Virus record (IMG/VR): IMGVR_UViG_3300045020_000189
Coordinates: 1-32,414 of that record
DNA length: 32,414 nt
Strand: one strand, 5' to 3'
From: a virus
Shown in pieces: positions 11,034-21,841 of this stretch. The position numbers were made by a program, and so were the translations under genes. The notes beneath the pieces were generated by a model, which was given only the letters and a program-made list of their open reading frames with translations, did no database searches and had not been told where the DNA came from. Position 1 is the first letter of the stretch, and each line of letters begins with the position of its first letter.

Positions 11034-11218
11034 TGGAGAATAACCCGCGACCTTGGCCTTTAGGGTGTCATGACCCTAGCTCTTGCGCCCGCCATAAAGA
11101 TTGCATGTATATTCAGTGTAAGCGCCAAGGCGACGAGTTCGTTGTGTTTGAAATTGAGCAGGCATTGCGTCGTATCGAGGAAATTAGGCTAGAGCCAGAG
11201 CTGACAAGAGAGGGTTGA
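11033..11218 (+). CDS. Small Cys-containing hypothetical protein
   Basis: Sixty-one residues. GCHDPSSCARHKDCMYIQCK (Cys12, Cys18, Cys24, Cys29, with His13 and His21) could bind a metal ion or form disulfides; the rest is a charged helix. TAATG-coupled to the preceding gene and TTGA-coupled to the NusG-like gene. Confidence 0.55.
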   Translation: MENNPRPWPLGCHDPSSCARHKDCMYIQCKRQGDEFVVFEIEQALRRIEEIRLEPELTREG

Positions 11219-11814
11219 AAAATTCTCCTTTTCTTTTGGCAAATCAACCGCTATATGTCGTGCCACTCTTTCCCGGGGGAGGACTAGATACGGTGCCTGA
11301 GACCGCTGATAATTGGATGGTGGCCCGAACACAAGCGCACCGAGAGCGGTGGGCCGCCGAGAACGTGACACGGTTAGGTGCTGAGTACTATCTTCCCCAA
11401 ACCCTAGAAACAGAACGCTTTGTACAGGCTGGCAAACGTCGTCGCGAGTTTCGGGTTCGTCCTCTTTTCCCTACCTACTTGTTTGTTAGACCTGCCCACG
11501 GACAGTGGCACGCGATCTTAAGCGCGTTCGGTATTGTCGGGATGGTTCCCGGCTCTGGAGGCTATCCCGCCTTCATTCGTGATATCTCGCTGAGTACAAT
11601 TCGCCTCCTCGAAGAAAATGGTCTGGTGGTTCTCCCCAAAGAGGGAGGATTGCGACCAGGCTCACCAGCGCGAATAACGCGCGGAGCTTATGCAGGATTT
11701 GCCGGATTGGTACAAGGCATATCAGCTAACGACAGAATCCATATTCTACTCGACTACATGGGACGTAAAGTCCCATTTCTTGTGCGCCCTGCGGACCTGG
11801 AGGCGGTTGCGTAG
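11215..11814 (+). CDS. NusG/RfaH-like transcription elongation factor
   Basis: The NGN domain is plain: NWMVARTQAHRERWAAENVTRLGAEYYLPQTLE, then FRVRPLFPTYLFVR and AFGIVGMVPGSGGYPAFI. A KOW-type C-terminal domain follows (LRPGSPARITRGAYAGFAGLVQGISANDRIHILLDYMGRKVPFLV). The family binds RNA polymerase and promotes elongation or antitermination; specialised members such as RfaH and LoaP act on particular operons. The start shown is TTG, sharing bases with the previous stop (TTGA). A GTG at 11293 behind GGGGGAGG gives an N-terminus closer to typical NusG and is a strong alternative. It is followed by the most structured non-coding stretch in the window, which may be its target. Confidence 0.85.
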   Translation: MKNSPFLLANQPLYVVPLFPGGGLDTVPETADNWMVARTQAHRERWAAENVTRLGAEYYLPQTLETERFVQAGKRRREFRVRPLFPTYLFVRPAHGQWHAILSAFGIVGMVPGSGGYPAFIRDISLSTIRLLEENGLVVLPKEGGLRPGSPARITRGAYAGFAGLVQGISANDRIHILLDYMGRKVPFLVRPADLEAVA

Positions 11815-11844
11815 GGGAACTGTACGATGTGGCTTGATGGTGAC

Positions 11845-11905
11845 TGAAAGCTGCTGAAAGGGTGTTAGCTTTCACTAGTGCATTTGCGTGAGAAGTTCGC
11901 ACTAG
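11845..11905 (+). promoter_or_regulatory. Two small hairpins, partly competing, in the gap after the NusG-like gene
   Basis: TGAAAGCT at 11845-11852 pairs perfectly with AGCTTTCA at 11867-11874. CTAGTGC at 11875-11881 pairs with GCACTAG at 11899-11905. A GCT at 11868-11870 can instead pair with AGC at 11909-11911, extending the second stem at the cost of the first. Neither stem has a T-run, so they are not ordinary terminators. Functional assignment is inference. Confidence 0.5.
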
Positions 11906-11921
11906 CGGAGCATTGGGTAAG

Positions 11922-12001
11922 TTGCTTAGATGAGGGGTGGTTGCGCAGGACATAAGCCGATGCGGCAGAGCGCAACAACAACGCACCCCTCATCTAAGCA
12001 A
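11922..12001 (+). ncRNA. Long compound stem-loop (candidate structured RNA or dyad element)
   Basis: An 18-base arm TTGCTTAGATGAGGGGTG (11922-11939) is perfectly complementary to 11984-12001. Directly inside, GTTGCGC (11940-11946) pairs with GCGCAAC (11970-11976), leaving a 7-base bulge (11977-11983). At the tip, GCCG (11956-11959) pairs with CGGC (11963-11966) around a 3-base loop. The total is about 29 base pairs in an 80-base element with no T-tract after it. It lies between the NusG-like and cold-shock genes, 44 bases before the latter start. It could be an antitermination or mRNA-control RNA, a protein-binding dyad, or the remnant of a small inverted-repeat element. The structure is seen in the sequence; the role is not. 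Confidence 0.6.
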
Positions 12002-12045
12002 TAGCGGGTTGGGGCTTAATCCAAAATCGATGGAGCAGTACGGCA

Positions 12046-12276
12046 GTGAGTGTTGAATCAGTTGCACAAGACGTGCGCAAAACCGGACAAGTCAAGTTCT
12101 TCGATGTTCGTAAGGGGTTTGGCTTCATCAAGCCTGACGATGGTTCAAAGGATGTATTCCTGAGCTTGAATCGTTTGCCCAAGAACACAACTGGGCTTCT
12201 GCCTGACACGCGTTGTAGCTTTATCGCTGCTGAGGGCAAGAAAGGTCTTTATGCGAAGGAGTTTGTGCTGCTTTGA
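12046..12276 (+). CDS. Cold-shock domain protein
   Basis: Seventy-six residues. GQVKFFDVRKGFGFIKPDDGSKDVFLSLNRL is a cold-shock domain with RNP1 (KGFGFI) and an RNP2-like DVFLSL, in which the usual VFVH has changed. These proteins bind single-stranded RNA or DNA, melt secondary structure and can act as antiterminators. The start is GTG; no strong ribosome site is seen just before it, and a large RNA hairpin lies upstream, so translation may depend on RNA structure. Confidence 0.9.
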   Translation: MSVESVAQDVRKTGQVKFFDVRKGFGFIKPDDGSKDVFLSLNRLPKNTTGLLPDTRCSFIAAEGKKGLYAKEFVLL

Positions 12277-14650: not shown

Positions 14651-14766
14651 GAGATTTCCTTTTGGTGTTATTTCTTGTCCTTGCCATCGACTTGCCGGTG
14701 ATCGGAATCATGTACGTGCTCTGCCAAGGCACAATTGGATCAGTACACTCGCCTATGCTGCCGTAG
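14647..14766 (+). CDS. Mini membrane protein (39 residues), 3' end overlaps the tRNA
   Basis: A GTG sharing bases with the previous stop opens a 39-codon frame, MRDFLLVLFLVLAIDLPVIG and onward, almost entirely hydrophobic. The final 10 bases overlap the acceptor stem of the tRNA at 14757. The overlap weakens the case, but the coupled start and the transmembrane pattern match the other mini membrane genes here. Confidence 0.45.
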   Translation: MRDFLLVLFLVLAIDLPVIGIMYVLCQGTIGSVHSPMLP

Positions 14767-14833
14767 CTCATCGTAGAGCATCTGGTGTGTAATCCAGAAG
14801 GTAGGTTGGTTCAACTCCGATCCGGCAGCACCA
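14757..14833 (+). tRNA. tRNA, probably Thr (UGU), with 8-base anticodon loop
   Basis: Acceptor GCTGCCG (14757-14763) pairs perfectly with CGGCAGC (14823-14829), followed by discriminator A and an encoded CCA. The D stem is GCTC/GAGC around a short ATCGTA loop. The anticodon stem TCTGG/CCAGA encloses TGTGTAAT (14786-14793), one base longer than normal. The T loop is TTCAACT on a stem readable as GGTTGG/CCGATC, 6 pairs. G1-C72, C2-G71, discriminator A and the TGTAA context favour tRNA-Thr(UGU), but the extra loop base leaves the reading frame uncertain, and GUA or GUG anticodons cannot be excluded. It may be functional, a frameshift-type tRNA, or decaying. Confidence 0.65.
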
Positions 14834-14903
14834 CCTGACGCTCACCAAAGACACACACTGCAAAATTAACAAAACATTCCCAGTATAACCCAAGTACCTA
14901 AAC
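14834..14903 (+). promoter_or_regulatory. A-rich gap with possible -10 element
   Basis: Seventy bases between the tRNA and the next gene, A/C-rich with no Shine-Dalgarno sequence before the ATG at 14904. TATAAC at 14884-14889 resembles a sigma-70 -10 box. The only -35-like hexamer, TTAACA at 14866-14871, is 12 bases away, too close for a standard promoter. Weak evidence for a promoter for the packaging region. Confidence 0.22.
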
Positions 14904-20029: not shown

Positions 20030-21841
20030 ATGACAGTATCGTTGCTAGATCAGCCGGTCAATTTCCCGGCTCCCAAAGGCTCGCTCCTGGTTCCCCCGCC
20101 TCCACCGGCTCCGGAGGACGAAGCCGCTAGGGAGGCTGCCAGTGCGGTCAATCGCAAGTTCCTAGAGGATATCGAGGCTAGCGTTGAAAGACGCATGCAG
20201 CACCTTCTGGCAGTCGAGAAGGGGGGACTAGACGCGATCAAGCTAGAGCTGGCAATCTGCGCTGAGGATCCGCTCTACTGGCTTAACTGGTACGGGTGGA
20301 CCTACGACCCAAGAAACCCACTCGAAAAGCCCGCACTGCCTGCGCACTTGCCCTTCGATCTGTGCCAGCGCCAGATCGAGATGTGGCAGTGGTTTGACTA
20401 CGTACTAGAATGCCGGCAAGACGGCTGCGTTAAGAAATCCCGCGGCATTGGCTTTACTTGGGAAGCCGGAGCGTACGCCTGGTACAAGTGGAGGTTCGTA
20501 CCGGGCTTCAAGACTACGTTTGGTTCCCGTAAGGCCACCGAGGTGGATCAGATTGGCAACCCCGACAGCATCCTTGAAAAGGTTCGGATGCTTTACCGTG
20601 GATTGCCGAAGTGGATGCTGCCAAGAGGCTTCAATCCTTTCCTTCATGATAAGCAGATGTTGCTGATCAATCCGGAGAATGACAATGTCATCAGAGGAGA
20701 GGGCGGCGACGAAATGGGGCGGGGCGGACGAGCGACGCTTTGCATTATTGATGAGGCTGCTAAAATTGAGCACGCAGACAGAGTTGATGCCGCAACTTCA
20801 GCTACTGCATCTGTTCGCATTTGGGGCAGCACCATTAACCCTCAAAATGAAAACAACCTTTTTGCTCGAAAATACAATTCCTTTCCGCCAGATCGTGTGT
20901 TCCGATTTCACTACTCGGAGCATCCGATTTGGACAGCCGAGCGCGTAGCCAACAAGAAGCAGGATGTCAGTCCTGAGATTTGGGCGTCTGAGTTCGAAAT
21001 CGACGACAGCTACACGGTTGAAGACATCACGATTCCTGCGGCTTGGGTGCAATCGTGCCAGAAGTTCAAGGCACTGTGTGATGCACGCTATCAGGAGGAG
21101 ATAGCCAAAGGCTCCGGTGAAGCCAGCAAGTACAAGCTCCAGCCGCGTCTTGAAGGTATAGCGGGGGGTGACGTTGGCGGTGGTAAGGCGCAAAGCGTTG
21201 TCATTGGCCGGTTTGGGCCAATTGTCGCCGCGCCTAATTCCTGGTTAGAGCCAGATACTATTGATACCGCACTCAAGATGCTAGATTATTGCGCGGAACT
21301 TAAGCTAGACCCGCGCGACGATACTTTGGTGCCTCGTATACGCTCGCTACGCTTCGATAGCGTGGCAATTGGCCAAGGTGTCTCAGCCACAATGAAGCGC
21401 AATCCGCGCAAGGGTTTGAGTGTCACCGGCGTCAATACTGGTCAGGCTGCCTCAGAAACTCGGTGGCCAGACGGTGAGCAGGCAAATGAGAAGTTCTTTA
21501 ATTCAAAGGCTGAGGGGTGGTGGACTTGTCGCGAGCGGTGTAAGCGGACGCACGAGATGGTACTGCATCTCGAAGGTCTTGCAGGAGGAGTGTATCACTC
21601 TCCCGACGATTGTATGGCACTCCCGAACGAACCGTCCAACCAACTTCTCAACCGGCTGGTCGCTCAGCTCAGCCAGGTCAAGTGGAACCGCCGAGAGAAC
21701 GGCAAGATTCAGATAGAGAGCAAGGAAAGTCTTGCCAAGCGTGGTATCCCTTCGCCCGACTACGCAGACGCCTTGATTCTGACGTTTACTGCACCAACCC
21801 ATGCAGAGCGTTGGGTTGCCTTTTCCAAAGTTCGAGTATGA
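20030..21841 (+). CDS. Terminase large subunit
   Basis: 603 residues. ATPase motifs: KKSRGIGFT (135-143) as the Walker A variant, ATLCIIDEAA (Walker B, Asp241, Glu242), and WGSTINP (265-271) as the coupling motif. Nuclease motifs: GIAGGDVGGGK (Asp381), LRFDSVAIG (Asp443) and PDYADALILTF near the end. The protein cuts concatemeric DNA and drives it into the prohead. A proline-rich N-terminal extension (VPPPPPAPED) precedes the ATPase. The ATG at 20030 lacks a strong ribosome site. The next gene overlaps by 41 bases. Confidence 0.93.
   Translation: MTVSLLDQPVNFPAPKGSLLVPPPPPAPEDEAAREAASAVNRKFLEDIEASVERRMQHLLAVEKGGLDAIKLELAICAEDPLYWLNWYGWTYDPRNPLEKPALPAHLPFDLCQRQIEMWQWFDYVLECRQDGCVKKSRGIGFTWEAGAYAWYKWRFVPGFKTTFGSRKATEVDQIGNPDSILEKVRMLYRGLPKWMLPRGFNPFLHDKQMLLINPENDNVIRGEGGDEMGRGGRATLCIIDEAAKIEHADRVDAATSATASVRIWGSTINPQNENNLFARKYNSFPPDRVFRFHYSEHPIWTAERVANKKQDVSPEIWASEFEIDDSYTVEDITIPAAWVQSCQKFKALCDARYQEEIAKGSGEASKYKLQPRLEGIAGGDVGGGKAQSVVIGRFGPIVAAPNSWLEPDTIDTALKMLDYCAELKLDPRDDTLVPRIRSLRFDSVAIGQGVSATMKRNPRKGLSVTGVNTGQAASETRWPDGEQANEKFFNSKAEGWWTCRERCKRTHEMVLHLEGLAGGVYHSPDDCMALPNEPSNQLLNRLVAQLSQVKWNRRENGKIQIESKESLAKRGIPSPDYADALILTFTAPTHAERWVAFSKVRV

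Follow-up and report, generated by a model that had tools for sequence, protein, structure and literature searches.

A structured intergenic region behind a phage NusG-like gene as a candidate loading region for an RfaH-like factor

Several described systems bear comparison with the locus reported here. RfaH of enterobacteria belongs to the NusG family and has an NGN and a KOW domain; it recognises the non-template strand of the DNA at its ops site, and it has been described for operons of virulence, capsule and conjugation in bacteria. The UpxY-type NusG paralogues of Bacteroides serve capsule operons and are encoded beside them. Among phages, the put element of HK022 is a structure of the nascent RNA that acts without a phage protein, and lambda Q, which is not known to be a NusG homologue, is a phage protein that reads a pause-linked DNA site, both at the start of an operon. 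The LoaP protein of Bacillus velezensis is a NusG paralogue that is paired with a structured leader, containing the dfn hairpin, at the head of a long operon, and its target is a small hairpin with a UNCG tetraloop (PMC12691694).

Our study concerns a 32.4-kb linear virus record (IMGVR_UViG_3300045020_000189; the whole stretch of 32,414 nt is referred to here as the window), in which a NusG-like gene is followed by a structured gap. RfaH/ops is the closest known system, and judging from their sequences the phage relatives of this gene look as if they work alike, as their cis site, GCGGTAGC(GTG), is the ops core and positions 10, 20, 23, 24 and 72 of the protein that would read it are RfaH-like. 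The parallel with RfaH, drawn in the sequence-only reading because RfaH acts at a specific DNA site, is a better fit than that with LoaP. Unlike RfaH, the gene is phage-borne and adjoins its likely target, the phage ops often stands behind an RNA hairpin, and the window itself carries degenerate ops-like sites only. The locus resembles LoaP in joining a NusG paralogue to a structured leader that heads a long operon; however, none of the small UNCG-tetraloop hairpins that LoaP needs was seen here, in the sequence or in its folds, and the largest hairpin of the gap is far larger, so recognition of the LoaP type, which the same reading had raised, finds no support. The locus shares with put and Q a phage cis element at an operon start, yet no sequence similarity to them was found, and it shares with UpxY a specialised paralogue encoded beside the operon that it would serve, although identity is only about 24 %. 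The literature that we searched, mostly non-subscription, contains no description of a phage-encoded NusG paralogue or RfaH-like factor with its own loading (ops) site, which speaks weakly for novelty.

The proteins of the window were read as clamp-loader, gp32-like SSB, UvsX/RecA, SbcD, SbcC, NusG-like, cold-shock, terminase and tail proteins, the clamp-loader, SSB, SbcD and tail names being based on sequence reading and on synteny with the annotated phage SSP002. The NusG/RfaH-family gene (11215..11814, + strand) matched Pfam NusG (2.6e-13) and PHROG 6386, 'transcription antiterminator' (1.8e-18). The first gene past the gap encodes a cold-shock-domain protein (12046..12276, + strand; Pfam CSD, 9.3e-12), and the terminase large subunit gene (20030..21841, + strand; PHROG 2, 2.4e-16), 8.2 kb downstream, marks the packaging and structural region. 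The AlphaFold2 model of the NusG-like protein (pLDDT 85) comprises an NGN domain followed by a beta KOW domain, and its Foldseek matches are NusG and RfaH; Pfam, AlphaFold2 and Foldseek thus agree on the domain order that defines the NusG/RfaH superfamily. The true start of the gene, listed as a TTG, is uncertain because residues 1-26 are modelled with very low confidence. The KOW domain is predicted as a beta-barrel and not in the autoinhibited alpha form of RfaH, a prediction that is compatible with fold switching. Monomorphic beta homologues of RfaH encoded near their own targets have been reported (PMC13015549).

Sequence, folding and a helix search together define a 231-nt structured intergenic region (11815..12045, + strand), and the three stem-loops described in the sequence-only reading, among them a compound hairpin with stems of 18, 7 and 4 bp, were confirmed. 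On the + strand, HP1 (11845..11874) pairs 11845-11853 with 11866-11874 over 9 bp including one G-U, and HP2 (11875..11905) pairs 11875-11881 with 11899-11905 over 7 bp. The compound hairpin HP3 (11921..12002) consists of a perfect 18-bp stem (11922-11939/11984-12001) extended by a G-U pair (11921/12002), an inner 7-bp stem (11940-11946/11970-11976) with a 7-nt bulge on its 3' side, and a 4-bp tip (11956-11959/11963-11966). The helix search also found a possible pseudoknot (11953..12018, + strand), in which UAAGCC in the HP3 loop (11953-11958) would pair with GGCUUA (12013-12018). A second possible pseudoknot was seen in the window, between GCAUUGG after HP2 (11910-11916) and the complementary CCGAUGC of the HP3 loop (11957-11963).

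The structure of the gap exceeds chance. Its folding z is -4.4, with none of 200 dinucleotide shuffles as low, and the lowest 80-nt folding energies of the window on the two strands, -43.7 and -46.2 kcal/mol, belong to segments containing HP3 (background mean -18.9, sd 5.4 kcal/mol). Apart from HP3, the 32 kb contain no perfect 18-bp inverted repeat within 120 nt, and arms of at least 18 bp occur in approximately 0.07 % of 1406 control windows of 350 nt. No T-tract follows HP3 on either strand, so it falls outside the definition of an intrinsic terminator as a G+C-rich hairpin plus T-tract, and no terminator or promoter match was found inside the gap, in keeping with the earlier view that it is not a plain terminator. 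No Rfam family matched the gap at gathering score; matches at a relaxed threshold, to a plant microRNA and a lncRNA, look like chance. The gap is likely to be non-coding, as had been supposed, and it contains no credible gene; against this, ORFs of 24 to 86 aa run across it on both strands, and the one that was tested, an 86-aa minus-strand ORF, had no phage relative.

HP3 itself is confined to the window in most of what was searched. Its DNA had no match in phages or plasmids, its arms and the whole element were absent from viral contigs, and no second copy was found in the window. Across 257 Gb of bacterial genomes a single match was recovered, a Veillonella hairpin (L008), about the number expected by chance, which has the arm letters alone in common with HP3 and unrelated flanks. 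As no homologue of HP3 could be aligned for covariation, the comparison was moved to the same position in nusG-related phages. Queries with single proteins, the NusG-like protein and the terminase of the window, found no relatives in viral contigs. A two-sequence alignment query recovered 80 virus loci whose NusG-like genes reach 43 % identity with the one in the window; a RecA alignment query added seven nusG loci, and a repeat with a larger alignment recovered nearly the same loci. The fragment L164, whose clamp-loader, SSB and RecA proteins are about 53-57 % identical to those of the window, stops short of nusG. Human-gut 'phage' NusG matches H2-H4 have polysaccharide and integrase genes as neighbours, are probably bacterial UpxY loci and were excluded as phage evidence. 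NusG matches also occur in the fecal 'Bacteriophage sp.' records MT836553.1, MT838838.1 and MT836453.1; the two that were opened, MT836553.1 and MT836453.1, look like Bacteroides chromosomal polysaccharide loci of the UpxY type rather than phage.

A de novo count of k-mers in the first 300 nt after nusG, across 65 non-redundant loci including the window, revealed that the most enriched 8-mers were overlapping pieces of one motif, GCGGTAGC. This motif was present in 17 of these loci against 0.4 expected from the remainder of the same loci, and TGCGGTAGC in 10 against 0.08; the ops-like letters had been noticed in folded sequences before the count, which ranks all k-mers with none preselected. 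Exact GCGGTAGCGTG follows nusG in four loci (L018, L020, L058 and L064), and about a quarter of the nusG relatives carry exact or core ops. GCGGTAGC is the core of the Escherichia coli ops, GGCGGTAGCGTG, and corresponds exactly to the part read by RfaH, a DNA hairpin with a C3:G8 pair that exposes G4, G5 and T6 (PMC5995543). In the phages it usually lies 25-150 nt past the nusG stop codon, often directly behind an RNA hairpin, the 3' arm of which extends into the motif; the 50 nt upstream of the motif have a mean folding z of -1.42 compared with -0.19 at random places, and 8 of 18 fall below -1.5 compared with 10 % at random places. One such locus, L216, has the gene order of the window from the clamp-loader through SbcC to nusG and carries a hairpin and GCGGTAGC after nusG. 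Approximately 80 nt after its nusG stop, an intrinsic terminator (GCGCCG...CGGCGC TTTTT) was also seen directly behind the hairpin and ops site.

A terminase was detected in 17 records (14 once near-copies were removed), and a comparison of its coordinates with those of nusG places it in every case on the nusG strand, 0.4-6.5 kb downstream. This puts the nusG gene and its element between the replication and packaging genes, a position that would be appropriate for a late antiterminator. No enrichment of intrinsic terminators was seen behind the NusG-like genes (7/72 compared with about 7 % in controls), and leader terminators were therefore rejected as a general target of read-through. The idea that a long perfect stem always follows nusG was likewise dropped, since arms of at least 10 bp occur in 16 of the 65 loci against 5.8 expected, a modest excess that is carried largely by the sister clade described below.

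This sister clade, class B, lacks GCGGTAGC and has in its place a hairpin and then GYGCAGCGCG. In about ten class B loci, GYGCAGCGCG is enclosed in a pseudoknotted RNA, formed by a closing stem P1 of 9-14 bp and a second stem, P3, that interlocks with it. The pseudoknotted RNA was located in the first 180 nt after nusG in L019, L023, L025, L026, L028, L035, L040 and L042, and L017 and L030 also carry it after nusG. The arms of P1 vary between phages and yet pair, with 8 of 12 pairs changed on both sides among eight sequences and a covariation score of 0.586, compared with 0.213 when shuffled and at most 0.164 when slid; this score covers P1 only, since P3 and the later hairpin are not in register in the MAFFT alignment. 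The mean folding z of the stretch after nusG, 110-270 nt in length, was -2.8 for class B, -0.4 for class A (the ops-bearing loci), -0.5 for other NusG loci and -0.2 for controls; the window scored -3.8. Another long hairpin lacking a U-tract often follows the pseudoknot, just before the next gene, and resembles HP3 in position and kind. In L025 and L040 the loop of this second hairpin carries CCUCCUC, the complement of GAGGAG, which serves as ribosome-binding site for the gene that follows; translational control is thus possible. No Rfam family matched the sequence behind nusG in 11 relatives drawn from both classes, nor the pseudoknotted RNA in the six of the listed loci that were scanned. 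The window region does not contain GYGCAGCGCG, and on the tree the window protein is placed outside class B, so the window does not belong with the class B RNA.

The residues that would read the site change with the site. RfaH has K10, H20, R23, Q24, T72 and R73 as DNA-reading residues, and loci with GCGGTAGC have K, Q or H at position 10 and N or H at position 20, with Q24 in 21/23 and T72 in 23/23; the 23 ops-class loci include L042, a class B locus placed in class A by a chance CGGTAG. Class B proteins most commonly have E10, L or F20 and A24. The two classes cluster on the protein tree, class B forming one side of a branch with support 93/95, so the association of residues with site is partly relatedness and does not represent many independent events. 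The window protein has Q10, N20, R23, L24, A72 and F73, of which Q10, N20, R23 and F73 are inside the range of the ops-bearing relatives and L24 and A72 are outside it. It belongs to a ten-row clade (support 89/86) with the ops-bearing loci L010, L043, L170 and L195, and L216 lies outside this clade. L170, whose protein is 40 % identical to that of the window, has a hairpin and GCGGTAGTG after nusG, and L195 has GGCGGTAGCGT after nusG with a cold-shock gene and terminase further down. In other members of the clade, L012, L169 and L182, the 220 nt behind nusG showed no ops core, and in L171 the core appears only at a distance of 336 nt. The gene after the ops-like site of L170 (11692-15225) encodes a ribonucleotide-reductase-like protein, with a seeming intein that includes a homing-endonuclease-like part.

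No exact GCGGTAGC was found near the nusG gene of the window, and two degenerate sites are candidates for loading, both at a level compatible with chance. The ops-like site GGCGGTTGCGTA (11802..11813, + strand) overlaps the nusG stop codon and matches GGCGGTAGCGTG at 10/12 letters, retaining C3, G4, G5, T6 and G8 of ops and differing at A7 and G12. It occupies the same position as the exact ops of the relative L058 and is the best PSSM site of the region, ranking tenth in the window, where three 10/12 matches occur against 2.5 expected; it may have arisen by chance or simply from the codons for Glu-Ala-Val-Ala-stop. The second, GCGGAGC (11905..11911, + strand), is GCGGTAGC minus its T and lies at the 3' end of HP2, in the same register as in the ops-bearing relatives, where a hairpin precedes GCGGTAGC. 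Matches to the ops core at an edit distance of one are expected approximately 0.2 times per 200 nt, making GCGGAGC weak when taken alone. Either the reader and site of the window have drifted elsewhere, or the hairpin took over, or the function differs.

Taken together, we consider it somewhat probable that the gap is a cis-acting loading region for the RfaH-like NusG paralogue of the phage, placed behind its gene and before the late genes, a role that is well supported for the family and that we infer for the window. RNA polymerase arriving from the replication genes would transcribe the mRNA of the factor and would then pause in the gap region, influenced by hairpins in the nascent RNA and by non-template DNA of ops-like sequence. 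The NGN domain of the factor would bind the paused polymerase and displace host NusG, and the modified polymerase would traverse the long downstream block unstopped by Rho or terminators. As leader terminators are not enriched, protection from Rho, as with RfaH, appears likelier than read-through of such terminators. The degenerate sites may contribute to loading, and HP3 may be a structured RNA that aids pausing or loading, or a processing or stability element of the downstream message. More tentatively, the locus may represent a widespread phage late-gene switch that combines a NusG paralogue of the RfaH type with a cis loading region of its own and would exist in three variants: a true ops behind a hairpin, swapped residues with GYGCAGCGCG in a pseudoknot, and the window, with its large compound hairpin and an ops site that would have decayed or changed. 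The earlier suggestion of a new antitermination system accordingly survives in part, since a cis element after nusG at the entrance to the packaging genes of the relatives fits it and the LoaP route does not. If phages carry matched pairs of reader and site before their late genes, this would suggest a new class of phage antitermination, with phages as a possible source of RfaH-like regulators and with naturally co-varying pairs of protein and site on which target choice among NusG paralogues could be examined, a choice that the clade-specific swap of residues and site would make directly testable.

The main rival to this treats HP3 as a hairpin for RNase III processing or for stabilisation of the mRNA, of the kind found at T7-like intercistronic sites. 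It would divide the upstream message (replication genes and nusG) from the downstream one, and its neighbour nusG would be a coincidence. A nearly continuous duplex of approximately 25 bp with no U-tract, at a module border and just 5' of a gene, would suit such a role, as would the long U-less hairpin before the next gene in many class B relatives; we nevertheless regard it as rather unlikely, as it leaves unexplained why structures recur behind NusG-like genes with ops-like sites. We rate as distinctly unlikely, though compatible with a loading region and not exclusive of it, the reading of HP3 as an attenuator, in which a strong pause hairpin or U-less terminator would keep transcription out of the late genes until the phage factor has been made. 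The very stable stem at the border of the late region would fit, and intrinsic terminators are present right after the ops site in L216 and after nusG in L016, but HP3 has no T-tract on either strand and terminators are not enriched at this position overall.

The adjoining gene suggests a further reading, in which the gap, as 5' leader, would regulate the cold-shock gene through control of its translation by temperature or structure, as in cspA. A GGAG stands 10 nt before the GTG start of the cold-shock-domain gene; however, the Rfam matches of the gap are confined to chance hits at a relaxed threshold, the genes directly after the structured gaps of L195 and L170 are not cold-shock genes, and few relatives were seen to have cold-shock genes, making this very unlikely. 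Nor is the cold-shock protein a constant partner in the system, since few of the relatives have it again behind nusG. Such genes were seen downstream of phage nusG in L195 (13010-13219), L169 (13555-13662), L187 (11220-11327) and L064 (5797-5904). It is extremely improbable that HP3 is a mobile or recombination palindrome (a transposon end, integron attC-like or REP-like) or a replication hairpin. A long perfect inverted repeat would fold as single-stranded DNA too, but its single copy in the window, the absence of its arms from viral contigs and the one unrelated, chance-level bacterial match run counter to a mobile inverted repeat at unrelated sites, the finding that had been named in advance as one that would count against an RNA element, and there is no GC-skew switch at the position of HP3.

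The genes of the window had been described as otherwise overlapping; this does not hold throughout, as a second gap of similar size is present at 14651-14903. It contains a tRNA-like gene (14757-14830), unreported by ARAGORN, which scored 44.5 bits against the Rfam tRNA model and whose anticodon loop looks 8 nt long (UGUGUAAU, GUA-like).
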